Part shown: positions 12,421 to 61,371 of the stretch, one piece after another | Layout: every line of letters begins with the position of its first letter | How positions within the stretch are numbered: the first letter of the stretch is position 1 | Assembly (NCBI GenBank): GCA_963924555.1 | Contig: OZ004582.1 | Location: 6,014,001 to 6,078,000, forward strand | DNA length: 64,000 nt | Direction: 5' to 3' | Source of the DNA: Crambe crambe | Lineage: Eukaryota; Porifera; Demospongiae; Poecilosclerida; Crambeidae | Made by a program: the position numbers and the translations under genes | The notes under the pieces: model-generated | Told to the model about the DNA's origin: nothing | What the model saw: the letters and a program-made list of their open reading frames with translations, nothing else | Database searches by the model: none

Positions 12421-15185
12421 ATGGAAAGTAGTCCATACTTCAACTCTATCGTGAGTGCTCTAAAGCGAGTCAAGAGGCCTGGCTTGTATGCCTCGGGTGG
12501 CCTGTGTTCTCTGCCTCTACCATGTCTTTCGATCAACAGCCTTCCCGATGTTGTTCTGGGTCTGCCTCTTGCTGACAGCCATGCAAAGTCCATCATCGAA
12601 TTTTCAACCCAAGCTCCATTTGGAAGAGGAGGTTGATACCTCTGTGCGTCGTACTTGGCAGCTAAGCCCGACACAGTTTTCCATTGGCAACGCCAAGTGG
12701 GAGAAGAAGCTGGGAACATTACTGGAGAAGGTCAAGGAGGACTTGGGATATGATACTACCTAATATTTTAATAATGAATCCATCTAGCCAGCCAACCCTT
12801 TACCATATTTCTCAATGTGATCGTGAAGATACACAACCTTTCAGCCATCAGGATTAGTTGTGGGATCGCATGTGCAATGTCAAGCATGATTGCTCTATCG
12901 AGAGGTACACCATTTTGCACATGATAGAGTTACTCACTGTTAATCTTGTGGTTTTGCTGGCAAGGGGAAGTAATGGTTTGGGTAAAGGGTTGACATAGGA
13001 TGTCGTTTCAGGGGTGGGGTCACATTATCTATAGCTAGTTTCTACTTTTGATTCACACACCTGACTTGGTTACCTAGCTGACAGTACAGAATCAATCCGG
13101 TATAGGATTTTTTCCCTTGCCCACGGACCAGACGGGGGCTGGCTACACAAGACTAATGATGGTTATGGTGGTTATGGTATGTATAGTGAAATCCTTTTGA
13201 GTAGAGCTGAGAAGTTGTAATGGCATAAAGTGTCTGTACCAATGGCTTATAGAACCCCTACCACCAATTTCTGACATCAGCTGCAATGTGGGAACCTTTC
13301 TGCCATCCCTTATCCTTTTTTGCTAGCTAAATAATTGAAATGAACTAGCTAGTTCTAGCTCTCTGTAGCCTTATACACATGCTGGTGCTCCTACATGGCC
13401 CCTCATGTGGCACATGTACTAGCTTCAAAATGTGTTTTGCATGCTATAGCACTGATTTTTTGTCAAAATAACAGTGTTACATATGTACTGCACCTTGGCA
13501 TTGGTGCCGAGGCAAAAATGTGCCCAAACAAAATACAGTGGTCCCTGCATGGAACAAGTGAGCAAAAAAATTTTTATTACTGTGATTAGCTAGCTATAGG
13601 CAGTGCTAGCTATGGAAATAATTATGAGTGTGTATCTGGCAATTAAATATTGTAGCAAATGAAGATATTAAAAGCAAGATATCTGAGATCTTCACTGAAA
13701 ACAGTTCTTTCTAAATGGAGCATACTTAACCAGATTTTGTCACCTTGATTATCTGTCTTTGATCATGATTCATGGCTATCCATATTATTATATAGATAGC
13801 TGACCTTTGAGTCACTTAGCTTTGCTAGTGATTGCTTGAACACAAATAAGTATTTGTGAGGATGTAATTGCAGTCACTATGGAAAGTGGAAAGTTCCTTC
13901 TTGTTTTTTCATGATTGTCGATCGTCAACTGGCCATAACCCTACCTATTCTAGATTCATAGCAGCGAAGGATGAGCCAAACACTACAGGCCATCCTACTT
14001 CACTCCCCATTGAGTGCTCTCATGGGGAGTAAAGAGTAGTCAAGTGCTGAAGTAGTGATAAAGTAGTGGTGTGGTTTAGGAGCAAAGGATGAGCCATACT
14101 CGTATTCACTATGCTGATTTTTCTTGCTGCTCTAACTATAGTAAGGCTTTCATATTACATAAGTTCCATTTCTGCTTTTTCTAGCTTATTTTCATCTTCT
14201 TACTGATTAATAAACTTACCAAAATTAATGTTTGAAATTGCTTCTTTACAACTCTAAATAATTCCCACCAAAAAAATGAGTGCATGTGAGCTAGTGACAC
14301 AAAAATTTCATGATTTTTTCCCATGAATATTCGTGAAATCTTTGATTCCATCTCTAACAGTATAATGAAAATCTTCTATGATGTAATTATTACAGCGTCA
14401 TCGAGATACGGAAAAAATCTGAAGGAATGTTTGGAACCTTAGTCATTCAACTGCCATCCAACTACAATGGTGGTCAGCTCAAGGTTTATCATCAATCTAA
14501 GAGCATGGAATTCGATTTTAGTGGTCCAATAGCATGTAGCAACTTCCATTTTGCTGCGTTTTATGCTGACTGCCAACATGAAATTGAACCAGTTACCAAA
14601 GGCTATCGTCTTTGCCTTATTTACAATTTAGTGTATCAAGGATGTGGTAACTGCCCTTCTCCTGCAAATAATCGGGAGATAGTTTCAAGTATTGTTTCTT
14701 CAATGAAAGAATGGGTTGAGGATGACCCTCCAATGATGACTTACTTACTGGAACATCAATATTGTGAAGCAAGTCTCTCTTTTCAGCGGCTAAAGAATAC
14801 TGATCGAGTTGTAGCAGATGTTCTCGCACAAGCAAAGAATGAAGTCAATTTTGATCTTTATCTGGCTCAGGTGAGAGTAGTGGAAAATTGGTCCGCTACT
14901 AACTATGGCGGTTATCATTATGAAGATATCAGAGAAGAAGATCTCATTGAAGAAAGTGCTACGGCTTGTAACCTGATATCGCTTAATGGCCAGCGAATTT
15001 CTGAAATTAATCTCGATAAAAAGTACTTTGTACCTGAAGATTTCTTTGAAGATCGTGATCCTGATGAAGAAGAGCGTGAGGAAGCAACTGGTGATGATGC
15101 CCACATGATGTTGTGCTTTTTTCATTGTATAGTTGCTGTTAAACTCCATTACAGTATTGATCACCCTATTGTAAATATCTTATGA
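12421..15185 (+). pseudogene. Dioxygenase copy 3, frameshifted and truncated
   Basis: Exon 1 starts at 12421 (MESSPYFNSIVSALK). Compared with copies 1 and 2 it has lost 11 bases near 12630, just after FGRG, so the frame breaks; the remainder (EVDTSVRRTWQL) continues in another frame to a stop at 12763, before the LYKLLLYEQGGFFK end of the exon. Exon 2 is recognisable from 14396, where one extra A in GAAAAAA shifts the frame before MFG. The frame from 14427 keeps the distal H and R but stops at 15185, after an unrelated tail in place of the last ~350 residues. H-x-D reads H-R-D. The breaks are against intact paralogs in the same window, so decay is well supported. Confidence 0.88.
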
Positions 15186-37463: not shown

Positions 37464-37560
37464 TATCAGAGAGTGCGGTAGCACTCTCTATGTAGGGTTA
37501 GCACAGAATGGGCGTGGCTTCTCTCATTAGAACAATACAAACTAGACTCTCTGTATCTCT
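37464..37560 (+). mobile_element. 97-bp hairpin-ended mini-element
   Basis: Starts TATCAGAGAGTGC, loop GGTA, GCACTCTCT, then ATGTAGGG, the same start as the composite elements, and ends CTGTATCTCT. A copy of the same 97-base length lies inverted at 46909-47005, inside a pseudogene, which shows it moves as a unit. Confidence 0.75.
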
Positions 37561-38893
37561 TCTATTCTTGGTACAGGCTCAACTAAACTTCTTACATCTG
37601 GAAAACAAAGAAGATGATAATATGACCGCTCAAACTCCTCCAGAACAGCGTCAACGATCGGCACCAGCCCCCGCCTAAATCTAAAATTTTTGTGATTCGT
37701 CTGGCGGCGGGCGCCCAAGAAAAAGGAGGTAAAGGGTCGACGCCGCCAGACTATCATTCATCATCATCATCATCATCATCTTCTTTGACGGCTGTAACTC
37801 CATGATCCTTTCACATGTGCTTTTGCCATTGTCAGCTTCCCTTCAAAATAATCACTCATATCGAACGACTTTTCATGTCTGCCATTTTCATTTGTTATGC
37901 GCGCGCGTCTGTCACTATCACGTGCACATAATTATGCGCGTACCAACGTTCAACATAGATATAAGAGGTTTTACGGGATTGGAAACGCCCAATGAACTGC
38001 ACAACCGTGGCGCGTTGACAGATGCGCACGCGCATGCAGCATTAATTATATTAATCGTTGTGAAAAGAGATCAATATTCACTCCTTTCAAGGCAGTTAAA
38101 GTGATATTCTGCCCCTACAGCTCACAGAATAGTACAAGTAAGCTAAGGGGACGGTATTGAAGAAGTGAAGAGTCAGAGAGTTGAAGCTGAGGAAGGAAGT
38201 TATTAATTATTCATAACTTTTTTCCTTGTAATTATAACTATGAGTACCTATCATTGCTCATTATACATTAATTGTATGTGATTGATTTGAAAGAAAGGCC
38301 AGAATGACTTTTGGTATTAAAATTAGACATAAATTCATTATTATTATAGCTAGATAATTTTGCCCCAAAGTTATCCACCAGTTTCTGCTCAGTTCTCCCT
38401 CATCAACATTATTGCAATACTTCCAGCTTTTGGCTGTTGGGTTTTGACACCATCCACCTCAAGAATTCAGCTCAGTCAGCTGTCCTGTGGACCCTATGGA
38501 TATTAGGGGGGAAATATAGTAAGCTTGCCATCTCCATCGGATGACTATTGTATAGAAAACGAATGCACCAATTCCATTTACTGTTCTATCCTTTCCCTGA
38601 AATAACTAATACAGTTTCAATATTGTTAATCTATTTCTTGGGAGAGGGATTACAGTTTTAACACCACTTGCAAATGCTAGAGACAATATATGTCAGCTAA
38701 TACAAAAACCAACATTACTATTCCATGTAGCTAAAGTTTACATGCCTTTTGATCAGAAAATGGGCAACAGCAATTGATTCCATCAAGCGTGAGAGGGATT
38801 ACAGTCCCATTAACCACTACAGTAGTATTTGTAGGAATAAACTTGAAAATCTGAGCTGAAATATATTTCATACAGTAAATCTATGCCCTAGTG
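37561..38893. other. Intergenic
   Basis: No gene recognised. A (CAT)n run lies at about 37755-37782. The segment 37956-38030 (TAGATATAAGAGGTTTTACG, GGGATTGGAAAC, GGCGCGTTGACAG) recurs in inverse orientation at about 40890-40985. Confidence 0.6.
37698..37752. repeat. Foldback with GTCTGGCGGCG ends
   Basis: GTCTGGCGGCGGGCG at the left is mirrored by CGACGCCGCCAGAC at the right. A relative with GTCTGGCGTCG ends lies at 58612-58694. Confidence 0.75.
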
Positions 38894-39133
38894 TATCAGA
38901 GAGTGCGGTAGCACTCTCTATGTAGGGATGACTCGGACGGCCGCGCGCGCCGCCTATAGACTAATACTAAAGTGAAATTCTAGTTCTCCCACTTAGACCT
39001 AACAAAAGCTACTGTGAATGATTATCCAGCCTACTAGAGCCTACTACAATGTGCAGACCAAGTTTCAGGACCAGGGAGCTTACCGTTTCAGAAATACGGC
39101 AAGCAGGTAAATCGCTATATTCTTCTTCTTCTC

Positions 39134-39137
<4 letters not shown>

Positions 39138-39171
<34 letters not shown>
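39138..39171. repeat. (ATT)n microsatellite
   Basis: About 11 ATT units. Such triplet runs recur at every junction between modules of the composite elements. Confidence 0.95.
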
Positions 39172-39174
<3 letters not shown>

Positions 39175-39670
39175 TTCTTCTTAGACAACCATATCTCTCG
39201 AACCACTCAAGCTACAGCCATGATTTCTGGACAAATCCACTCCAAATTCTACCAACTACGATCTTTTCTACTCGTTGATCCTCGAAAGAGTCGATGAAAA
39301 AGGAGACACTATGGAGCACAGCACTCGACTAATTCAATTAGGAAGCCATCTTTTCTATAATACGCATGCGCATGTATTTGAATATCCAATTATTCGAAAT
39401 CATAATATTACTCAGCTGTCTCTAGCTAGCTAGCTAGCTAGCTCTAGCTGATGATAGACTACTGTATCGATTCGGGGATTTAGATTCACCACGGTAGACT
39501 CTATTTCAGCATCTTCGACCTCCAAGTATGGCTCAACAACACAACACCTTGACTCGATAAATGATTGGGCTGGTATGCTATTGGAGAACTTCTTTCATCT
39601 GTCCCTGCATACACAGAAGAATGAACTCTAATCATAGCTAAAACCATAAAAGAGAGGAAAAAAGACCAGG

Positions 39671-39985
39671 AACAAGTAAGGGAAAAAGCATTTCGTGAAA
39701 TGAAAAAAAGATGTAGGGATGACCACTGCTCAAAAAAGTAAGGAAACAAGAAGGATGGAAATGGGATCAATCTTTGTTCTGTATATCCAGCCAACAATCC
39801 CTACATATACGTCAGGTAACTTCAGATTATAGTGTAGTAATGTGTGTATATGTAGGGATTGTTGGCTGGATATACAGAACAAAGATTGATCCCATTTCCA
39901 TCCTTCTTGTTTCCTTACTTTTTTGAGCAGTGGTCATCCCTACATCTTTTTTTCATTTCACGAAATGCTTTTTCCCTTACTTGTT
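39671..39985. repeat. Foldback P1, perfect 139-nt arms
   Basis: Arms 39671-39809 and 39847-39985 are perfect reverse complements over 139 bases, with a 37-base loop. Ends are AACAAGTAAGG; GTAGGGAT and ATCCCTAC occur at the same relative places as in the other foldbacks. Confidence 0.95.
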
Positions 39986-40508
39986 ATTATTATTATTATT
40001 ATTATTCTTCTTAGACAACCATATCTCTCGAACCACTCAAGCTACAGCCATGATTTCTGGACAAATCCACTCCAAATTCTACCAACTACGATCTTTTCTA
40101 CTCTTTGATCCTCGAAAGAGTCGATGAAAAAGGAGACACTATGGAGCACAGCATGCACTCGACTAATTCAATTAGGAAGCCATCTTTTCTATAATACGCA
40201 TGCGCATGTATTTGAATATCCAATTATTCGAAATCATAATATTACTCAGCTGTCTCTAGCTAGCTAGCTAGCTCTAGCTCTGGATAATGATGATGATAGA
40301 CTACTGTATCGATTCGGGGATTTAGATTCACCACGGTAGACTCTATTTCAGCATCTTCGACCTCCAAGTATGGCTCAACAACACAACACCTTGACTCGAT
40401 AATGATTGGGCTGGTATTGGAGAACTTCTTTCATCTGTCCCTGCATACACATAGAAGAATGAACTCTAATCATTGCTAAAACCATAAAAGAGAGGAAAAA
40501 AGACCAGG

Positions 40509-40817
40509 AACAAGTAAGGGAAAAAGCATTTCGTGAAATGAAAAAAAGATGTAGGGATGACCACTGCTCAAAAAAGTAAGGAAACAAGAAGGATGGAAAT
40601 GGGATCAATCTTTGTTCTGTATATCCAGCCAACAATCCCTACATATACGGCGGGTAACTTCAGATTATAGTGTAGTAATGTACGTATATGTAGGGATTGT
40701 TGGCTGGATATACAGAACAAAGATTGATCCCATTTCCATCCTTCTTGTTTCCTTACTTTTTTGAGCAGTGGTCATCCCTACATCTTTTTTTCATTTCACG
40801 AAATGCTTTTTCCCTTA
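40509..40817. repeat. Foldback P2
   Basis: Duplicate of P1 with the same arms. The right arm stops short by about 8 bases (ends TTTTTCCCTTA), which removes the terminal ACTTGTT. Confidence 0.93.
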
Positions 40818-41039
40818 TTATAGTATCATTGGCATAAGTCTTACCTCACGGATCTTGTCAGAACAGCAACTTTGACAAAAGTGCTATGTCATTCAGCTGT
40901 CAACGCGCCTCGGTTGTTAGTTGCTAACGAGAGCACATGATCCGTTTCCAATCCCGTAAACATCTTATATCTATGGTGCCAACCAGCTATTAATTAATTT
41001 TTACTTGAAAATATCAAAGGTCATACAAAAAGTAAACAA

Positions 41040-41328
41040 ACAAGTGAAAGGAAAAAAATGTAGGGTTTATAGCCTGTACTTTAACAGTTTCTGTCAACAA
41101 AAATCAAAATAATGCTGCCTTCAATAATAATCCCTACATCACTGCCTAAACCAAGCAGAACACTTTTATACTGACATGAACAATTAAACCAGCTTAGTGG
41201 GAGGCAGTGATGTAGGGATTATTATTGAAGGCAGCATTATTTTGATTTTTGTTGACAGAAACTGTTAAAGTACAGGCTAACCCTACATGGCCTTCTTATT
41301 TAGCATAATTTTTTTTCCTTTCACTTGT
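41040..41328. repeat. Foldback P3
   Basis: Ends ACAAGTGAAAGG. The long inner arms (AGCCTGTACTTTAACAGTTT to ATCCCTACATCACTGCCT) are perfect. The left arm lacks about 20 bases present in the right arm (TTATGCTAAATAAGAAGGCC). The loop is about 55 bases. Confidence 0.92.
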
Positions 41329-46238: not shown

Positions 46239-46908
46239 TAGGTATTGTAGAGAGCACTATCATTAAGATAATATTGTAGATGCTTGAATCACCCACAAAG
46301 ATCAATATTGTGATCATTCCAAGAAGAATCAGCACTAAGCCATCAACTGTACTCATCCAGCTCTTCTCGTAGGGTTTTACCGCAAGGAAAAAACACCCCA
46401 AGCCAACATAAACCAACAAATTAAGGCTCCACTCAACATTGTAGAAATGAAAGTCAATACACACACTAAAAACAAAACAGTGTGTGCATTGGGAAAAATG
46501 GTGTGCAGTAAACACTTTTACAGTGAAATGAGTCATGCTTAATGTCATACTGAAACATACGTATGAATCAAAATATAGCCATATTCACAAGCTATGCATA
46601 TCCTTAATATCATGTACAGAGCTGATAGTGCTCTGTAGTGTTGAGTACCATTAATAGTGCCATCTTTATACCTTGGAAGACATCCATGACTATGGTTAAG
46701 GCATGCCACCTCTTAAAGCTGCACTTTTCGAGGCAGTGTTTGAAACACTTTGTTGGGTATAAGAGGAGAAGGGATGGAGGGAGAATAATGAAAATTACGA
46801 TAATGCTAAGAGAGGGGGGCATGGCTACATACGTCCAAATTACTTCAGTGATGAATCATAGAGCAAAATAGGAGAATCTTTCACTTTCATTTCATCATTA
46901 TTGTACAA

Positions 46909-47005
46909 AGAGATACAAAGAGTCTAGTTTGTATTGTTCTAATGAGAGAAGCCACGCCCATTCCGTGCTAACCCTACATAGAGAGTGCTACCGCACTCTC
47001 TGATA
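46909..47005 (-). mobile_element. 97-bp hairpin-ended mini-element, inverted copy
   Basis: Reverse complement of the element at 37464-37560, with the same length and both ends the same. It is inserted in broken copy H. Confidence 0.8.
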
Positions 47006-47481: not shown

Positions 47482-48180
47482 TATCAGAGAGTGCGGTAGC
47501 ACTCTCTAAGTAGGGATGGCAGGTCAAAGTCCATAGGACAGTATAAACTAAAAACTCTTCTTTCTCTTCTACCCTTACTCTACAGGTTCTCAGAAGGCTA
47601 CAGTGAATTATTATATCTACAAAGAAGAGAGGAGAATGTTCAAAAGCCAAAAATTCATTCGCCAACATAAGAAAAAAACGAGTTCTAAAATTGACTTTTC
47701 GTTCTTTTTCTTTATCAGAGAGTGCGCTAGCACTCTCTAAGTAGGGATGGCGGGTCAAAGGTCATAAGACTGTATGAACTAAAAACTCTTCTTTCTCTTC
47801 TACCCTTGCTCTACAGGTTCTCAGAAGGCTACAGTGAATTATTACATCTACAAAGAAGAGAGGAGAATGTTCCAAAACCAAAAATTCATTCGCTAACATA
47901 AAAAAAAACGATGTCTAAAATTGACTTTTGTTCTTTTTCTTTATCAGAGAGTGCGCTAGCACTCTCTAAGTAGGGATGGCGGGTCAAAGGTCATAAGACT
48001 GTATAAACTAAAAACTCTTCTTTCTCTTCTACCCTTACTCTACAGGTTCTCAGAAGGCTATAGTGAATTATTGCATCTACCAAGAAGAGAGGAGAATGTT
48101 CAAAAACCGAAAATTCATTCGCTAACATAAGAAAAAAACGATGTCTAAAATTGACTTTTGTTCAATTTCTTTATAATAAT
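47482..48180 (+). repeat. Unit I, three tandem copies
   Basis: Units of about 230 bases start at 47482, 47713 and 47942. Each begins with the hairpin AGAGAGTGC, loop GGTA or GCTA, GCACTCTCT, then AAGTAGGGATGGC. A (TAA)n run follows the last. Confidence 0.93.
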
Positions 48181-48742
48181 AATAATAATAATAATAATAA
48201 GGATAATAAGATCGACGTACCGACTTACTGGCTATAGTCATCAAAATTCTGCTTTGGCCATCTGTTAGAGCGGCACCTAGAGGCTGATCTTTTGCTATTA
48301 GTTTTGACTAAGGCTCTACTTCACTATTCGAGCACTCGGAACACTAGCTAATCTTTCGACGCCATTTTGAAGCGCACGTCGCTAGGGGGCGGGGCTTATG
48401 GGCGGGGCCACGTATAAGTGCACGTGTGGCTACAGTACAGCCTCGCCTCTAACTAAGCTTAGCTAGGTCTTCATTTAGCTAGCTATTTATTCTTATCATC
48501 TGATGATGTTCCTGACACTCCTTGCTGCATTGCAGTATAGATGCTCATCCTATAGTACTATTATAATTCTTGGCTGTAGTGTAGTCAGCTCACTTCACTA
48601 TGTCATGTACATGTCATTTACATTGCTGTTGTTGTAAAGTTTTATATTTAAATAATAGACAAAACTTAAATAATTAAATAAATTCTTCCAGAGACTGTAT
48701 GTACCTTACTTTCAACTTCAAACACAAAGAAAAAGAATAGAA

Positions 48743-49003
48743 ACAAGTGAGCGCAAAAAATTCCTTCTGAATAAAAAGGTTAAGTAGGGATGGCCTAAAA
48801 TCTAGTTGGGCTGTATAATGTACTGCAGCCTCATATGAAAACAATCCCTACTTTTACAACGGCCCATAGCTAGCTATAGGTAGTGGATGTAAATGTAGGG
48901 ATTGTTTTCATATGAGGCTGCAGTACATTATACAGCCCAACTAGATTTTAGGCCATCCCTACTTAACCTTTTTATTCAGAAGGAATTTTTTGCGCTCACT
49001 TGT
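48743..49003. repeat. Foldback P4, perfect 109-nt arms
   Basis: Arms 48743-48851 and 48895-49003 are perfect reverse complements, with a 43-base loop. Ends ACAAGTGAGCGC. Arm-specific bases include GGGATGGCC, CTAGTTGGGCTGTATAATG and CCTCATATG. Confidence 0.96.
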
Positions 49004-49006
49004 AAT

Positions 49007-49448
49007 AATCAGAGAGTGCGCTAGCACTCTCTAAGTAGGGATGGCGGGTCAAAGGTCATAAGACTGTATGAACTAAAAACTCTTCTTTCTCTTCTACCCT
49101 TGCTCTACAGGTTCTCAGAAGGCTACAGTGAATTATTACATCTACAAAGAAGAGAGGAGAATGTTCCAAAACCAAAAATTCATTCGCTAACATAAGAAAA
49201 AAACGATGTCTAAAATTGACTTTTGTTCTTTTTCTTTATAAAGTAGGGATGGCGGGTCAAAGGTCATAAGACTGTATAAACTAAAAACTCTTCTTTCTCT
49301 TCTACCATTGCTCTACAGGTTCTCAGAAGGCTACAGTGAGATACTACTTCTACAAAGAAGAGAGGAGAGTATTCAAAAACCAAAAATTCATTCGCTAACA
49401 TAAGAAAAAAACGAGTTCTAAAATTGACTTTTGTTCATTTTCTTTATA
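49007..49448 (+). repeat. Unit I, one full copy and one lacking the hairpin
   Basis: The full copy runs from 49008. The second starts directly at AAGTAGGGATGGCGG (49241), so the hairpin is absent. Confidence 0.92.
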
Positions 49449-50098
49449 ATAATAATAATAATAATAATAAGGATAATAAATATAAGATCGACGCCCCGAC
49501 TTACTGGCTATAGTCATCAAAATTCTGCTTTGGCTATCTGTTAGAGCGGCACCTAGAGGCTGATCTTTTGCTCTTAGTTTTGACTAAGGCTCTACTTCAC
49601 TATTCGATAGCACTCGGCACTAGCTAATCTTTCTACGCCATTTTGAAGCGCACGTCGTTAGGGGGCGGGGCTTATGGGCGGAGCCACGTAAGCTTCTTAA
49701 GCTAGCTAAGCTCGCTATAGGTCTTCAGTTTAATCGCTATTTATTCTTATCTGATGATGTTACAGTCACTCCTTGCTGAATTACAGTACAGATGCTCATC
49801 TTATAGTAGTGTTTATAGCCAGTACTTGGCTGTAGTGTAGTCAGCTCACTTCACCATGCCATGCACATGTCATTTACATTGCTGTTGCTGTAAAGTAAAT
49901 AATAGACAAAACTTAAATAGCTAAACAAATTCTTCAACCATGCAGAGACTGTGTATGTACCTACAAAAGAAAGAGATACTCATGTCACATTAATAATCAC
50001 TGCATACTCTCAGTTGAAGTGACAGTCAATACTGCCACTCAATTCTTTACATACACAAACTTATATTCAACTTCAAGCACTATGAAAAAAGGATAGAA

Positions 50099-50364
50099 AC
50101 AAGTAAGCGCAAAAAATTTCTTCTAAATAAAAAGGTTAAGTAGGGATAGCTTAAAATCTAGCTGGGCTATAATATAATGTACTGCAGCCTTGTATGAAAA
50201 TAATCCCTACTTTTACAACTGCCATAGCTAGCTATAGGTAGTGGATATAAATGTAGGGATTATTTTCATACAAGGCTGCAGTACATTATATTATAGCCCA
50301 GCTAGATTTTAAGCTATCCCTACTTAACCTTTTTATTTAGAAGAAATTTTTTGCGCTTACTTGT
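50099..50364. repeat. Foldback P5, perfect arms of about 112 nt
   Basis: Ends ACAAGTAAGCGC and its complement. Arm-specific bases GGGATAGCTTAAAATC, GCTATAATATAATG, CCTTGTATG and AAATAATCC are each mirrored in the other arm. Confidence 0.96.
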
Positions 50365-50369
50365 AATAA

Positions 50370-50575
50370 TAAGTAGGGATGGCGGGTCAAAGGTCATAAG
50401 ACTGTATAAACTAAAAACTCTTCTTTCTCTTCTACCCTTACTCTACAGGTTCTCAGAAGGCTACAGTGAATTATTACATCTACAAAGAAGAGAGGAGAAT
50501 GTTCAAAGACCAAAAATTCATTCGCTAACATGAGAAAAAAACGATGTCTAAAATTGACTTTTGTTCTTTTTCTTT
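50370..50575 (+). repeat. Unit I, single copy lacking the hairpin
   Basis: Starts at AAGTAGGGATGGCGG directly after P5 and ends TTCTTTATAATAATCAGG. Confidence 0.9.
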
Positions 50576-50975
50576 ATAATAATCAGGATAATAATAATAA
50601 TAATAATAATAAGATCGACGTACCGGCTTACTGGCTATAGTCATCAAAATTCTGCTTTGGCCATCTGTTAGAGCGGCACCTAGAGGCTGATCTTTTGCTA
50701 TTAGTTTTGACTAAGGCTCTACTTCACTATTCGAGCACTCGGAACACTAGCTAAATCTTTCGACGCCATTTTGAAGCGCATGTTGGTATGGGGCGGGGTT
50801 ATGGGCGGAGCCACGTAAGCTTCTTAAGGTCTTCAGTTTAATCGTTTAGCTAGCTATTTATTCTTATCTGATGATGTTCCAGTCACTCCTTGCTGAATTA
50901 CAGTGCTCACCCTCAATTCTTTTATACATACACAAACTAATATTCAACTTCAAGAACTAAGAAAAAAGGATAGAA

Positions 50976-51308
50976 ACAAGTGAGTGCAAAAAATTTCTTC
51001 TAAATAAAAAGGTTAAGTAGGGATAGCCTAAAATCTAGCTGGGCTATATAACGTACTGCAGCCTCGTATGAATACAATCCCTACTTTTACAACTGCTAGC
51101 TATAGCTAGCTATAGGTAGTGGATGTAAATGTAGGGATTGTATTCATACGAGGCTGCAGTACGTTATATAGCCCCTAGCTATAGCTAGCAGTTGTAAAAG
51201 TAGGGATTGTATTCATACGAGGCTGCAGTACGTTATATAGCCCAGCTAGATTTTAGGCTATCCCTACTTAACCTTTTTATTTAGAAGAAATTTTTTGCAC
51301 TCACTTGT
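50976..51308. repeat. Foldback P6 with an extra right arm
   Basis: The left arm and the final right arm pair perfectly (ends ACAAGTGAGTGC). Between them is an extra partial right arm (about 51131-51173) followed by CTAGCTATAGCTAGCAGTTG, which copies the inner loop in reverse complement. Confidence 0.93.
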
Positions 51309-51762
51309 AATAATAATAATAAGGATAATAAATATAAGATCGACGTACCGGCTTACTGGCTATAGTCATCAAAATTCTGCTTTGGCCATCTGTTAGAGCG
51401 GCACCTAGAGGCTGATCTTTTGCTATTAGTTTTGACTAAGGCTCTACTTCACTATTCGAGCACTCGGAACACTAGCCAATCTTTCGACGCCATTTTGAAG
51501 CGCACGTCGGTAGGGGGCGGGGCTTATGGGCGGAGCCACGTAAGCTTCTCAGTTTAATCGTTTAGGTAGCTAATTTTATTCTTATCTGATGATGTTCCAG
51601 TCACTCCTTGCTGAATTACAGTACAGATGCTCATCTTATAGTAGTATTATAGCCAGTACTTGGCTGTAGTGTCTCAGTTGAAGTGACGGTCACTACTGCC
51701 ATTCAATTCTTTACATACACAAACTTACATTCAACTTCAAGCAATAAGAAAAAAGGATGGAA

Positions 51763-52024
51763 ACAAGTGAGCGTAAAAAATTTCTTCTAAATAAAAAGGT
51801 TAAGTAGGGATAGCCTAAAATCTAGCTGGGCTATAATAATGTACTGCAGCCTCATATGAAAACAATCCCTACTTTTACAACTGCCATAGCTAGCTATAGG
51901 TAGTGGATGTAGATGTAGGGATTGTTTTCATATGAGGCTGCAGTACATTATTATAGCCCAGCTAGATTTTAGGCTATCCCTACTTAACCTTTTTATTTAG
52001 AAGAAATTTTTTACGCTCACTTGT
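51763..52024. repeat. Foldback P7, perfect arms of about 110 nt
   Basis: Ends ACAAGTGAGCGTAAAAAATT and its exact complement. Inner arm variant GCTATAATAATGTACTG is mirrored. Confidence 0.96.
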
Positions 52025-52581
52025 AATAATAAGGATAATAATAATAATAAGATCGACGTACCGACTTACTGGCTATAGTCATCAAAATTCTGCTTTGGCC
52101 ATCTGTTAGAGCGGCACCTAGAGGCTGATCTTTTGCTATTAGTTTTGACTAAGGCTCTACTTCACTATTCGATAGCACTCGGAACACAGCTGCTAATCTT
52201 TCTACGCCATTTTGAAGGGGGCGGGGCTTATGGGCGGAGCCACGTAAGCTTAAGTTTAGCTATAGCCAAGGTCTTCATTCATTATCTGATGATGTTCCAG
52301 TCACTCCTTGCTGAATTACAGTACAGATGCTCATCCTATAGTAGCATTATAGCCAGTACTTGGCTGTAGTGTAGTCAGCTCACTTCACCATGCCGTGTAC
52401 ATGTCATTTACATTGCTGTTGCTGTAAAGTTTTATATCAACAAAACTTAAATAGCTAAACAAATTCTTCAACCAGAGACACTGTATGTACCTACAAAAGA
52501 GGTTTATGTAGAGCTGGCTTTGTATAGTACTGTACTGTAGCCTCCCTCATTCAACTTCAAGCACTAACAAAAAGGATAGAA

Positions 52582-52675
52582 ACAAGTGAGCGTAAAAAAT
52601 AAAAAGGTTAAGTAGGGATAGCCTAAAATCTAGCTGGGCTATCTATAATGTGCTGCAGCCTCGTATGAAAAAAAT
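52582..52675. repeat. Half foldback P8 (left arm only)
   Basis: Starts ACAAGTGAGCGTAAAAAATA, lacks the TTTCTTCTA segment and breaks after CAGCCTCGTATGAAAAAAAT. No complementary arm follows. The same break occurs in the duplicate at 60459-60552. Confidence 0.85.
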
Positions 52676-53058
52676 CTTCGCGATATTACCTCATAAAAGG
52701 GGTGGGGCAATTAATAGCAGTTCTCCTCATATAACACCTGCACAGGATGTGGCCATTTGATGGCATCCACTATTATGATCACTACACCAAATGCATAAAC
52801 TCCCCATACTCCTCCCTCAAGCAAGACATACGTACCATCTCAATAATTATTTCAGTGATCACATATGTAACAATTAGCTAATGCTGTTCACTTTTTAAAA
52901 TGTTCACTCCTTTCAGTACTCCATTACACTGCAGATGATCATCCTTCAAACTCTCCTCCCTGAACAGAATGAAATACTGATCATTAAATAAATTTAGTTC
53001 AATCAAGGAAGCCTTTAGTGTCTATCAATTTTCATAATCACAAAGAAAAAGAATGCAA

Positions 53059-53507
53059 ACAAGTGAATGCAAAAAATTTCTTCGAAATAAAAATGTGAAG
53101 TAGGGATGCTATTATAACTGCAGCTTCATTATGAAAACCAAGTACTGCAGCATCGAAGCAGTATGGCCCAAAAATCGAGCTGGAATATGTATTATAACTG
53201 CATGCAAGAGAGTGAACTTAGTGAAGTGACCCTTACCCATCATCAAGTACAAGATACTATTCCTACTTCACTCCCATGATCAAGGGCCAAGGGAGTGAAG
53301 TAGGAATAGTATCTCGTACTTGATGATGGGTAAGGGTCACTTCACTAAGTTCACTCTCTTGCATGCAGTTATAATACATATTCCAGCTCGATTTTTGGGC
53401 CATACTGCTTCGATGCTGCAGTACTTGGTTTTCATAATGAAGCTGCAGTTATAATAGCATCCCTACTTCACATTTTTATTTCGAAGAAATTTTTTGCATT
53501 CACTTGT
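53059..53507. repeat. Foldback P9, arms of about 217 nt
   Basis: Ends ACAAGTGAATGC. Arms pair along about 217 bases with a loop of about 15 bases (ATGATCAAGGGCCAA). One mismatch was noticed (CAAGTACAAG against CTCGTACTTG). Confidence 0.95.
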
Positions 53508-53508
53508 A

Positions 53509-53815: not shown

Positions 53816-53872
53816 GCTTAAGTAGACATGACTGAATTTTTTTTCTAAAGAACTAAATATACAGCATGTATA

Positions 53873-54412
53873 TAGGAGTAGGTGTCCCTGATAGGAGTAA
53901 ATGTCCTAATAAGAGTACAATTCCAAACATAGGAGTAAATGTCCCTAAATGTGCCTATAATAGGAGTACAACTCCAAACATAGGAGTAAATGTCCCTAAG
54001 TGTCACTAATAGGAGTACAATTCCAAATATAGGAGTAAATGTCCCTAATAGGAGTAAATGTCCCAATAGGAGTGCAATTCCAAACATAGGAGTAAATGTC
54101 CTTAATAGGAGTAAATATCCCTAATAGGAGTAAGTGTCACTAATAGGAGTACAATTCCAAACATAGGAGTAAATGTCCCTAATAGGAGAAATGTCCCTAA
54201 TAGGAGTAAGTGTCCCTAATAGGAGTAAGTGTCCCTAATAGGAGTACAATTCCAAATATAGGAGTAAATGTCCCTAATAGGAGTAAATGTCACTAATAGG
54301 AGCAAGTGTCCCTAATAGGAGTAAATTTCACTAATAGGAATAAATGTGAGTAAATGCCCCTAATAGGAGTACAATTCCAAACATAGGAGTAAATGTCCCT
54401 AATAGGGAGGTT
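53873..54412. repeat. Composite minisatellite (GGAGTAAATGTCCCTAATA)
   Basis: About 25 irregular units of 19-20 bases, GGAGTAAATGTCCCTAATA, alternate with GGAGTACAATTCCAAACATA. From 54413 to 54806 nothing is recognised. Confidence 0.93.
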
Positions 54413-57034: not shown

Positions 57035-58463
57035 TATCAGAGAGTGCGGTAGCACTCTCTAAGTAGGGATGGCAGGTCAAAGTCCATAGGACAGTATAAA
57101 CTAAAAACTCTTCTTTCTCTTCTACCCTTACTCTACAGGTTCTCAGAAGGCTACAGTGAATTATTATATCTACAAAGAAGAGAGGAGAATGTTCAAAAGC
57201 CAAAAATTCATTCGCTAACATAAGAAAAAAACGAGTTCTAAAATTGACCTTTCGTTCTTTTTCTTTATTATAATAATAATCAGAGAGTGCGGTAGCACTC
57301 TCTAAGTAGGGATGGCAGGTCAAAGTCCATAGGACAGTATAAACTAAAAACTCTTCTTTCTCTTCTACCCTTACTCTACAGGTTCTCAGAAGGCTACAGT
57401 GAATTATTATATCTACAAAGAAGAGAGGAGAATGTTCAAAAGCCAAAAATTCATTCGCCAACATAAGAAAAAAACGAGTTCTAAAATTGACTTTTCGTTC
57501 TTTTTCTTTATAATAATAATAATAATAATCAGAGAGTGCGCTAGCACTCTCTAAGTAGGGATGGCGGGTCAAAGGTCATAAGACTGTATAAACTAAAAAC
57601 TCTTCTTTCTCTTCTACCCTTACTCTACAGGTTCTCAGAAGGCTACAGTGAATTATTACATCTACAAAGAAGAGAGGAGAATGTTCAAAGACCAAAAATT
57701 CATTCGCTAACATGAGAAAAAAACGATGTCTAAAATTGACTTTTGTTCTTTTTCTTTATAATCAGAGAGTGCGGTAGCACTCTCTAAGTAGGGATGGCAG
57801 GTCAAAGTCCATAGGACAGTATAAACTAAAAACTCTTCTTTCTCTTCTACCCTTACTCTACAGGTTCTCAGAAGGCTACAGTGAATTATTATATCTACAA
57901 AGAAGAGAGGAGAATGTTCAAAAGCCAAAAATTCATTCGCCAACATAAGAAAAAAACGAGTTCTAAAATTGACTTTTCGTTCTTTTTCTTTATAATCAGA
58001 GAGTGCGGTAGCACTCTCTAAGTAGGGATGGCAGGTCAAAGTCCATAGGACAGTATAAACTAAAAACTCTTCTTTCTCTTCTACCCTTACTCTACAGGTT
58101 CTCAGAAGGCTACAGTGAATTATTATATCTACAAAGAAGAGAGGAGAATGTTCAAAAGCCAAAAATTCATTCGCCAACATAAGAAAAAAACGAGTTCTAA
58201 AATTGACTTTTCGTTCTTTTTCTTTATAATCAGAGAGTGCGGTAGCACTCTCTAAGTAGGGATGGCAGGTCAAAGTCCATAGGACAGTATAAACTAAAAA
58301 CTCTTCTTTCTCTTCTACCCTTACTCTACAGGTTCTCAGAAGGCTACAGTGAATTATTATATCTACAAAGAAGAGAGGAGAATGTTCAAAAGCCAAAAAT
58401 TCATTCGCCAACATAAGAAAAAAACGAGTTCTAAAATTGACTTTTCGTTCTTTTTCTTTATAA
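57035..58463 (+). repeat. Unit I, six tandem copies
   Basis: Starts at about 57036, 57282, 57529, 57761, 57995 and 58229; the last are exactly 234 bases apart. The first three are followed by TAATAATAAT runs of different length. Because 234 is divisible by three and no stop occurs on the minus strand, a long repeated frame (VNFRTRFFLMLANEFLAFEH) spans the array; I treat it as incidental. Confidence 0.94.
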
Positions 58464-58611
58464 TAATAATAAGGCCATGCAAACTAGATTCACTGTTTAT
58501 CGTCACCGCCCGCATCAAAAAAATTTTTATCTTAAAAAAATTCAGAGTTCAGAGTTCACGTTTTAATGCAGCACGTGCAGGCACCTAGTACCTAGTACCT
58601 GCAATTGCACT

Positions 58612-58694
58612 AGTCTGGCGTCGCCAGCCCAGCTTTTCTTCCCAAAAAAAAAAAAAAAGAAAAGAAGAAAAGCTGGGCTGGCGACGCCAGACTA
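58612..58694. repeat. Foldback with GTCTGGCGTCG ends
   Basis: GTCTGGCGTCGCCAGCCCAG, then CTTTTCTTC, is mirrored around an A-rich loop. A relative with similar ends is at 37698-37752. Confidence 0.88.
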
Positions 58695-58741
58695 CAATTG
58701 CACAGCTGATCAGAGAGTCAGGCTCAACGCTTGCTAGTTTT

Positions 58742-59321
58742 ATGGCGGAGAAACAGTTAGTATCAGTTTCTGTGGTGAGCAACAACCGTTGTCTTGTTCC
58801 TTGGTCAGTTATTTTGGTCGACCCAAGAGACAGTTTCGAAGATCTACTAAACGCAATGAGAGCTGGCAAGTATGGGACAATTCCTACAGAACCATTGCTT
58901 GACCGTGCTGACAGTATTGAAACTGTTTTTGTCGGTAACATCAAACCATCAGTCTTTGTCCATTGTAGGCAAGGACATGAACGTCGTTCAGGTATGTCGT
59001 ACCTTCGGTTTCTTCATAAAAATTTCAGTTGCACAACCAGAACCACCTAGACAAAATGCTTTTGATATTTTGATGGCCAATCAACGAAAATTAAGCAGGC
59101 CTGCACTTCCCGAGTATATTGAAGAGCGAACTGTGAAGTTATTGGAAGGAATGGGAAAGAAATGGTGCAGTGGAGAAGTGCAGTCTGGAAAGTCTTTTCT
59201 AAGCACTTTAGCTAATGTGATTTTGTATATAGATGGACATCATGAGAGCATTGAGATCCAAGCTTGTGGAGTACCAGAGCTTTTTATACTGTGTATACAC
59301 TGTGGAGGCACTGAATTTTGA
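58742..59321 (+). pseudogene. Unidentified gene inside the Harbinger-like element, frameshifted
   Basis: From ATG at 58742 the frame reads MAEKQLVSVSVVSNNRCLVP and continues WSVILVDPRDSFEDLLNAM, RADSIETVFVGNIKPSVFVH, CRQGHE. Near 58985 the sensible reading passes to another frame (VCRTFGFFIKISVAQPEPPR then QNAFDILMANQRKLSRPALP), ending at 59321. No GT-AG intron fits, so a one-base frameshift is likely. The composition is that of a real protein, about 190 residues. Family not recognised; it could be transposon cargo or an accessory transposition protein. Confidence 0.5.
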
Positions 59322-59400
59322 ACATGGTGTTTATCTGATTGTACATGTATATATGAGAGAATATTACTATAATTGCTTTACTTTTTTGTGTTTACATTTA

Positions 59401-59769
59401 GGCCACATCAAATTAATTACTTGTTTATCATCCTAATTTCTTCAAAAATTAGGAGAGGGGGGGAGGCTTTTATTTTTATTTTTTATTGGTTTCCATGGCA
59501 CCTGTTTAAAAAGCTATCATTATGAAAACATACAAAAAGCTGAAGTTCCACAAAAAAGTCATAAAAACAAGTAGCTGCACACTTTACTTGAAGAATAATA
59601 AACACCATAATTTAATAGCCACCAAAATTGAAATTACACTGAAAATCACGCCTAAAATTTCAAGTAAAGTACACCATGCACATGCTCAGTAGAAATAAAA
59701 TTAAAAATCCAGAAGAGCAAAAATTGGAGAGGGAGGGGATGATAAACAAGTAATTAAGTTGATGTGGCC
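59401..59769. mobile_element. Nested Harbinger-like MITE
   Basis: Inverted ends of 33 bases start GGCCACATCAAMTTAATTAC with one mismatch. TTA flanks both sides. The ends share GGCCA and TTTATCRTC with the host element at 58473-59900. Non-coding. Confidence 0.85.
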
Positions 59770-59900
59770 TTAGCCAGCCATAGCTAGCTAGTGTCTTGTT
59801 ATTTGATCATAATTATATTGAATATTGAATATTGACCTCCCTCCCTCATGCAAATTTAGAAATCTTGTGACGATAAACAGTGAATTTAGTTTGCATGGCC

Positions 59901-61368
59901 TAATAAGGATAATAATAATAATAATAAGATCGACGTACCGACTTACTGGCTATAGTCATCAAAATTCTGCTTTGGCCATCTGTTAGAGCGGCACCTAGAG
60001 GCTGATCTTTTGCTATTAGTTTTGACTAAGGCTCTACTTCACTATTCGATAGCACTCGGAACACAGCTGCTAATCTTTCTACGCCATTTTGAAGGGGGCG
60101 GGGCTTATGGGCGGAGCCACGTAAGCTTAAGTTTAGCTATAGCCAAGGTCTTCATTCATTATCTGATGATGTTCCAGTCACTCCTTGCTGAATTACAGTA
60201 CAGATGCTCATCCTATAGTAGCATTATAGCCAGTACTTGGCTGTAGTGTAGTCAGCTCACTTCACCATGCCGTGTACATGTCATTTACATTGCTGTTGCT
60301 GTAAAGTTTTATATCAACAAAACTTAAATAGCTAAACAAATTCTTCAACCAGAGACACTGTATGTACCTACAAAAGAGGTTTATGTAGAGCTGGCTTTGT
60401 ATAGTACTGTACTGTAGCTTCCCTCATTCAACTTCAAGCACTAAGAAAAAGGATAGAAACAAGTGAGCGTAAAAAATAAAAAGGTTAAGTAGGGATAGCC
60501 TAAAATCTAGCTGGGCTATCTATAATGTGCTGCAGCCTCGTATGAAAAAAATCTTCGCGATATTACCTCATAAAAGGGGTGGGGCAATTAATAACAGTTC
60601 TCCTCATATAACACCTGCACAGGATGTGGCCATTTGATGGCATCCACTATTATGATCACTACACCAAATGCATAAACTCCCCATACTCCTCCCTCAAGCA
60701 AGACATACGTACCATCTCAATAATTATTTCAGTGATCACATATGTAACAATTAGCTAATGCTGTTCACTTTTTAAAATGTTCACTCCTTTCAGTACTCCA
60801 TTACACTGCAGATGATCATCCTTCAAACTCTCCTCCCTGAACAGAATGAAATACTGATCATTAAATAAATTTAGTTCAATCAAGGAAGCCTTTAGTGTCT
60901 ATCAATTTTCATAATCACAAAGAAAAAGAATGCAAACAAGTGAATGCAAAAAATTTCTTCGAAATAAAAATGTGAAGTAGGGATGCTATTATAACTGCAG
61001 CTTCATTATGAAAACCAAGTACTGCAGCATCGAAGCAGTATGGCCCAAAAATCTAGCTGGAATATGTATTATAACTGCATGCAAGAGAGTGAACTTAGTG
61101 AAGTGACCCTTACCCATCATCAAGTACAAGTTCACTCCCATGATCAAGGGCCAAGGGAGTGAAGTAGGAATAGTATCTTGTACTTGATGATGGGTAAGGG
61201 TCACTTCACTAAGTTCACTCTCTTGCATGCAGTTATAATACATATTCCAGCTAGATTTTTGGGCCATACTGCTTCGATGCTGCAGTACTTGGTTTTCATA
61301 ATGAAGCTGCAGTTATAATAGCATCCCTACTTCACATTTTTATTTCGAAGAAATTTTTTGCATTCACT

Positions 61369-61371
<3 letters not shown>
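59901..61371. repeat. Duplicate of 52025-53507
   Basis: Unit II, half foldback P8' (60459-60552), spacer and P10, nearly identical to the end of composite 1. The 78-codon frame at 60010-60246 is an artefact shared with 52133-52369. Confidence 0.93.
60936..61371. repeat. Foldback P10
   Basis: Homologous to P9. The left arm lost about 13 bases near the loop (ATACTATTCCTAC). The substitution ATCTAGCTGG (P9: ATCGAGCTGG) is mirrored in its right arm as CCAGCTAGAT. Confidence 0.95.

Follow-up and report, generated by a model that had tools for sequence, protein, structure and literature searches.

Two large arrays of palindromic repeats that encode no proteins lie within a stretch of 64,000 nucleotides from the sponge Crambe crambe (assembly GCA_963924555.1, contig OZ004582.1, positions 6,014,001 to 6,078,000 of the forward strand; hereafter the window), and they raise the question of whether each array is one mobile unit or has been put together from several, and by which mechanism. 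The initial annotation, made from the window alone, described one composite, array-forming element, built of a hairpin unit I, a GC-box unit II and a foldback III joined by TAA runs. On the scale of the genome (143 megabases in 119 contigs, where the window is C3:6014001-6078000 and C1, C7 and C9 are other contigs), that description gives way to another, since empty sites show whole elements inserted one into another. The arrays are non-autonomous Helitron2-type rolling-circle elements, and the composites are nested insertions into their own (TAA)n tract, combined with local duplication of unit I, and not one mobile unit. As an explanation of the locus as a whole, the nesting of such elements in each other's (TAA)n tracts is considered very probable. 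An Rfam scan of the window at gathering scores and a tRNA scan gave no matches.

Both arrays have the same left end, TCAGAGAGTGC-GGTA-GCACTCTCT-AAGTAGGGATGGC, starting at 47484 and 57037, and the same right end, a foldback of 447 and 434 base pairs (bp), respectively, closing on ...TTCACTTG|T at 53506 and 61370, as had been annotated. Genome-wide, exact copies of the left-end motif number 906 (465 on the forward and 441 on the reverse strand; none for the reversed-sequence control), and those of the right-end arm 1,438 (722 and 716 by strand; control likewise zero). The minimal element consists of unit I, (TAA)n, unit II and foldback III, measures about 0.9-1.7 kilobases (kb), and also occurs alone. 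Its 5' hairpin folds at -9.6 kcal/mol, with 0 of 200 shuffles equally stable, and such a terminal hairpin is present in the two families tested, in each of which 0 of 200 shuffles were as stable. Behind the hairpin, starting 24 bp from the 5' end, lies an inverted repeat of 11-14 bp; the outer edge of the 3' inverted repeat lies about 38 bp inside the 3' end, and the palindrome of the right end extends over about 230-450 bp, or about 770 bp in family A. When five 3' ends were folded, a short hairpin behind the repeat outdid most shuffles in two ends (5 and 3 of 200 equally good) and was unremarkable in two (75 and 138 of 200 as good), and the best fold of the fifth was a different one (15 of 200 as good). 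Judged by eye, the inverted repeats of the two ends covary by type, namely AAGTAGGGATGGC in type a, ATGTAGGGTTAGC in type c, ATGTAGGGATGAC in the Rep-encoding family on C9 as well as in the window element at 38896, and ATGTAGGGATGGC in the Rep-encoding family on C1. End types match in 15 of the 16 innermost pairs examined on C1 (Fisher p 0.0014), a GCTA-loop left end going with the short foldback IIIa and a GGTA-loop one with the long IIIb; this sample was taken from 29 foldbacks with both arms exact, among the arm copies listed, and from 65 of the 85 listed C1 left ends, namely those within the foldback-listed stretch.

The rolling-circle mechanism at which the initial annotation had guessed is backed by elements that encode a Rep/helicase between ends of the same architecture at constant spacing. 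Helitron_like_N has 67 matches in the genome, of which 21 fall in open frames of 2,002-2,498 amino acids. At the C9 locus, a hairpin with ATGTAGGGATGAC is followed by an open frame of 2,397 codons and by a foldback with the same repeat, and a second Rep family, on C1, carries unit I and a foldback of the window type. Searches with C9-type ends gave 41 left matches (best 40 of 606 candidates scored) and 40 right matches (best 40 of 400). Among the ends scored, a left end lies upstream of 12 of the 67 Rep matches on the same strand, at 3,460-3,483 bp in 11 of the 12; a right-end arm (either arm) lies downstream of 24, and both ends are present for 10. Seven left-right pairs on one strand span 10,035-10,113 bp, so that the relatives envisaged in that annotation do exist, as 10.1-kb Rep-encoding elements with ends at fixed distances. 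At C9:6242026-6262175 (the junction in L062), two 10-kb Rep-encoding copies stand head to tail with 10 bases between them.

In one full Rep frame from C1, a Pfam scan detected PIF1, Helitron_like_N, DUF6570 and two OTU stretches; the frame gave no match to an endonuclease domain. Both the C1 and the C9 protein contain HUH-like and two-tyrosine motifs. The helicase is related to that of Helraiser (7lcc_A, E 8.4e-33). In a tree of 40 proteins (38 of 120 listed relatives plus the C1 and C9 proteins), six endonuclease-bearing relatives and two others, one of which (P0112) sits on a long branch flagged by the tree program, are separated from the C1 and C9 proteins by a branch with 100/100 support; the latter group beside proteins of the sponge Ephydatia muelleri, their nearest relatives bearing a species name. 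Viral contigs scanned for Rep relatives yielded no confirmed match. Homology of the protein and anatomy of the ends are read directly from the sequence, and transposition is presumed from them.

The boundaries of the elements are A|TCAG...ACTTG|T, with no target duplication. In 14 left-right end pairs, which include some pairings of an outer left with an inner right end as well as the false third composite treated below, A stands before the left end in 14 of 14 and T after ACTTG in 13 of 14, the exception being L039, which has an altered end. All 30 fetched left ends have AT directly before CAG, i.e., A precedes the insertion start, and T follows ACTTG in 100 of 100 nested right ends, the pattern of ACTTG in the tract before unit II having 101 matches, of which 100 were listed and inspected. 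Seven joined sites were queried for empty counterparts, with the best 40 of 796 candidates scored. L022 has two spanning matches, in one of which, L055, the junction is ungapped and 169 of 180 positions are identical, 9 gap letters starting 17 bases rightward. Site 38896 has one match, which extends 15 bases beyond the junction, and the other five have no clearly spanning match among the candidates scored; at L039 some matches extend 7-23 bases past the junction, which is read as neighbouring repeat. The right flank of L039 is itself a repeat with many near-identical copies. From the ungapped junction of L022 and L055, together with A and T at the ends, it therefore follows that the elements insert between A and T without duplication.

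Nesting is seen in the C1 Rep element, which starts at CTTTA|TCAG and ends at ACTTG|TAATAATAA within the TAA tract of a b-type element. Its joined flanks are identical to the un-nested L025 at 259 of 270 positions, and the junction differs only in TAA count. The b-type outer ends of composites 1 and 2 fit the same pattern. The first composite and its immediate surroundings resolve into the following parts:

47484 to 53506, forward: composite 1, whose outer element is of b type (left end with GGTA loop, right end IIIb) and holds several nested a-type elements in the TAA tract
47484 to 47507, forward: 5' end of composite 1, TCAG and a hairpin with a 9-bp stem, then the inverted-repeat motif AAGTAGGGATGGC at 47508-47520
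47715 to 48172, forward: two more unit I copies (GCTA loop), each beginning at CTTTA|TCAG
48173 to 48209, forward: (TAA)n tract between units I and II, the self-target; insertion shown for the homologous tract
48744 to 49002, forward: foldback IIIa closing a nested a-type element on the right, with the loop in orientation F
49009 to 49240, forward: unit I (GCTA loop), starting in TAATAA|TCAG right after the preceding right end
49241 to 49446, forward: unit I without hairpin, a local deletion
50100 to 50363, forward: foldback IIIa; 49241-50365 is 100% identical to part of a complete C1 element
50371 to 50576, forward: unit I without hairpin, a local deletion
50977 to 51307, forward: foldback IIIa with a 69-bp duplication, whose junction occurs once in the genome
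51764 to 52023, forward: foldback IIIa
53060 to 53506, forward: foldback IIIb, outer right end of composite 1, loop orientation F
46895 to 47003, reverse: short piece of a c-type element, consisting of its 5' end only and representing a second insertion into the pseudogene

The pattern of the two hairpin-less junctions (49241 and 50371) matches these two places only, genome-wide. Composite 1 as a still-mobile unit is rejected, given that these junctions and the loop duplication are confined to the window. To the right of composite 1, 53870-54406 is a tandem repeat of TAGGAGTAAATGTCCC-like units. Elsewhere in the window, the reverse strand of 20409-44092 holds a series of long frames that match no Pfam family; several are relatives of the broken host gene of composite 1.

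The outer unit I of composite 2 is 99.1% identical to that of composite 1, and its last II-III module 98.7%. Three unit I copies of composite 2 have the common junction CTTTATAA|TCAG. Composite 2 does not consist of units I, II and III alone, as had been annotated, and holds a distinct element with inverted repeats in its TAA tract:

57037 to 61370, forward: composite 2, of b type and inserted into (TA)n, in which unit I occurs six times, five times with the GGTA loop and once with GCTA
about 58473 to 59900, no strand assigned: unrelated terminal-inverted-repeat element, whose ends measure 35 bp and which has inserted into the TAA tract of composite 2
60937 to 61370, forward: foldback IIIb, right end of composite 2

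Inside the element at 58473-59900 there is an apparent gene fragment, itself with a short foldback.

A third composite had been proposed at 38894-41328. The left hairpin and the ACTTGT end named for it are indeed present, but they belong to two elements:

37466 to 41327, forward: outer c-type element with motif ATGTAGGGTTAGC at both ends; foldback at about 41041-41327 by eye
38896 to about 40817, forward: inner element nested in the c-type one, with motif ATGTAGGGATGAC, a TTA tract and two II-III modules (96.7% identical); terminal CTTG missing

L057 is a copy of the outer c-type sequence without the inner insertion. At C9:8663700 the left flank of 38896 is uninterrupted and continues, by eye, into the sequence right of about 40817; the inner element is therefore nested in the outer one and has lost its last bases. 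L047 and L059, of other types, sit in a TTA tract before CTTCT(T)AGACAAC; in the 38896 element this sequence comes after the TTA tract, and L047 and L059 have the orientation of that element.

The pattern of unit I, tract and unit I has 335 matches genome-wide, of which 100 were listed and inspected; 56 of these have no spacer (there the A belongs to the pattern), whereas 44 have one, and TCAG is preceded by A in 43 of the latter, the remaining one being a second reading of a neighbouring match. C7 supplies 10 of these 100 junctions and 6 of the 100 listed nested right ends, and the C7 cases are not independent. On C7 the junction motifs of the element recur every ~39.95 kb (1733, 41689, 81641; reverse strand 24443, 64399, 104348), and C7 therefore looks like a 40-kb tandem repeat carrying the element. 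Among the first 100 listed of the 906 left ends, 39 lie in arrays of 2-5; there are 24 adjacent pairs less than 600 bp apart, the two members always on one strand, and 22 of these pairs are spaced at 222-242 bp.

That each composite is a rolling-circle concatemer or a single mobile unit, as the initial annotation proposed, would agree with the shared orientation of nested copies and with the several 5' and 3' ends in each array. It is nevertheless rated as quite improbable, given junctions that lie within the TAA tract at A-T steps and are flanked on either side by host sequence, left and right ends of matching type, and private marks of composite 1 that occur nowhere outside the window. Assembly is also difficult for palindromes and tandem units, yet the hundreds of copies on many contigs, the private marks and the clean empty sites leave an assembly artefact with hardly any probability.

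Several observations weigh against the nesting of whole elements as a sufficient account. The second empty site for L022, L056, is 85% identical and has gaps at the junction. Many unit I copies lack a matching II-III, which nesting alone does not explain; local duplication must therefore be at work as well, as in composite 2, where three unit I copies have a common junction. A strong bias towards co-orientation is not predicted by random insertion: opposite-orientation nesting was found at 8 junctions, 5 of them apparently at the tract, versus 101 co-oriented, counts that come from patterns of different length, not strictly matched, and do not represent independent events. Among the 30 left ends fetched, some of them nested, TAA|T stands at 9 and TTA|T at 6, so that a simple sequence preference offers no obvious explanation of co-orientation. 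Composite 1 does lie inside a broken membrane-protein gene, as first described, although identity between its flanks and the paralogues of that gene in the window is only 67-68%, and gaps close to the junction are required in four of the five alignments, the nearest gap of the fifth being about 5 bases to the right. Finally, 28 of the 41 C9-type left-end matches have no Rep match within 8 kb, as is expected of non-autonomous copies, which is no proof of action in trans.

In the mechanism that we favour, a Rep/helicase from the 10-11 kb relatives would act in trans, recognising the 5' end (TCAG, hairpin and GTAGGGAT repeat) and the 3' end (the GTAGGGAT repeat inverted, followed by ...ACTTG). 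One strand would be peeled off and, as a putative single-stranded intermediate, joined between A and T with the target left unduplicated. New copies enter the (TAA)n tracts of old copies, because each copy has a tract rich in A-T steps, and nested arrays are the outcome, with repeated unit I copies also arising via local duplication. The action of Rep in trans, the single-stranded intermediate and the process that remakes the foldback arms are inferred; the end architecture and fixed spacing common to Rep-encoding copies, the A|T insertion without duplication, the nesting, the type-matched ends, the mirrored arms of the short foldbacks and the two loop orientations are read from the sequence.

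The arms were compared in 18 distinct right ends, mostly short, left from 45 hits after inner arms and duplicates were dropped. In these 18, 140 of 151 deviations from the majority are mirrored in both arms, and the two arms of a copy are each other's closest relatives in 13. A larger, overlapping set of 21 IIIa copies, separated by length from 13 long IIIb ones, has shared changes mirrored in 81 of 82 cells and private changes in 12 of 16. The copies compared come mostly from the window and C1, which is not a random sample. With the ambiguous long copy L077 excluded, the IIIb loops are divided 9 versus 4 by orientation, and the loop is also reversed in the C1 foldback copy ending at 14709. 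One IIIa copy with reversed loop matches the reverse complement of its sister L082 exactly over 233 bases, and the two share their inner flank.

Mirrored arms and flipped loops can be explained alike by copying coupled to a hairpin or by recombination between the arms. In the former case, the right end would fold in the single-stranded intermediate, its 3' end would pair with the inner arm, and copying and nicking would remake the arm and could invert the loop, as in parvoviruses, whose ends are palindromic, carry the loop in both orientations and are served by an HUH-type Rep; the elements here differ from these in being palindromic at one end only and in having no virus genes. The mirrored deviations, the mirrored changes of IIIa, the sister arms, the exact reverse-complement pair and the divided IIIb loops are what such copying could leave behind, but it is doubtful as an explanation in view of the nine of nine family A autonomous copies examined (loop about 445 bp, two only 88% similar in the loop) that are in reference orientation, and of the IIIa loops that run one way in 17 of 17 classed copies, with the one further copy reversed. 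The 13 IIIb copies are also at odds with it: their shared changes are mirrored in 4 cells and one-armed in 8, all 8 at one column near the loop where 8 of the 13 copies differ between their arms, and their private changes are mirrored in 3 and one-armed in 9, of which 5 fall within a single stretch of the copy in composite 2.

Homogenisation of the arms and inversion of the loop after insertion, by recombination or gene conversion between the inverted arms and unlinked to transposition, would account for the same arm and loop data, including the private mirrored changes of IIIa, and inversion between inverted repeats is well known. Arms have nonetheless diverged in some copies (L021 0.88, L040 0.935, C1 0.963), and mirroring is less frequent among private than among shared changes, in a small sample of copies; we give this process about an even chance. 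A wider proposal, in which the right end is a rolling hairpin, self-primed or self-templated in each cycle so that the arms are kept alike and the loop is flipped, and in which the exposed single strand of a moving relative is the target of new copies, seems unlikely, more so than the hairpin copying by itself. If true, it would join the Helitron and parvovirus styles of Rep replication in a eukaryotic transposon, and insertion into the exposed strand would explain the shared orientation of nested copies.

Whichever process acts on the arms, nested transposition of Helitron2-type elements connects, in an animal genome, an abundant repeat that encodes no protein with its likely enzyme, and provides a natural system with hundreds of copies for asking how Helitron2 elements end replication. 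Should the foldback be remade at each transposition, the arms would record single-strand intermediates, and the co-orientation of nested insertions poses a directly testable question of strand-specific targeting.

A miniature inverted-repeat transposable element or a cut-and-paste foldback element is rejected, in view of the absence of target duplication and of ends common to Rep-encoding partners. Like Helentrons, DINE-1 and HINE, the elements have subterminal inverted repeats, a hairpin end and an OTU domain, and their non-autonomous copies contain a microsatellite and repeated units (PMC4067079). Unlike Helentrons, they have no endonuclease domain in the scanned frame and a protein on a separate branch, insert at A|T and not within TT (30 of 30 left ends, two empty sites), and carry the hairpin at the end upstream of Rep (PMC4067079). 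The Helentron-like label first given to them thus holds as regards rolling-circle transposition, and a Helentron in the strict sense is rejected on account of the missing endonuclease and the 100/100 branch; Helitron2 fits better. With Helitron1 (Helraiser, 7lcc) they share the TC start, the A|T target without duplication (PMC5148889) and a related helicase, and they differ from it in the 5' hairpin, the inverted repeats at both ends and the terminal ACTTG, where Helitron1 has CTRR, a subterminal 3' hairpin and no 5' hairpin.

The closest agreement is with Helitron2, which likewise has a RepHel without endonuclease (Helitron_like_N and PIF1), short asymmetric inverted repeats, the 3' one lying tens of bp inside the 3' end, and insertion usually without target duplication (PMC3627910, PMC5148889). 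In Helitron2 the 3' repeat stands upstream of a hairpin; of the five 3' ends folded here, two gave such a hairpin more stable than most shuffles. Its 5' end also starts with T and has a hairpin, Fusarium FoHeli1 and 2 having TCAG (PMC5148889). We speak of Helitron2-type elements, and not of strict membership, because the 5' repeat lies behind the hairpin here, whereas in Helitron2 it lies 0-2 bp from the 5' terminus and belongs to the hairpin, a defining detail (PMC3627910, PMC5148889). In the literature searched, which included PMC5148889, PMC4067079, PMC3627910 and PMC6431247, with subscription papers and Repbase outside the search, no description of Helitron2 with long palindromic right ends or flipped loops was found. 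The elements of Crambe crambe thus differ from Helitron2, as described in these sources, in their self-nested arrays and the two OTU stretches of the protein, and they go beyond its anatomy in a long palindromic right end, whose arms evolve together in the short type and whose loop occurs both ways, and in nested insertions that are mostly co-oriented with the host element.

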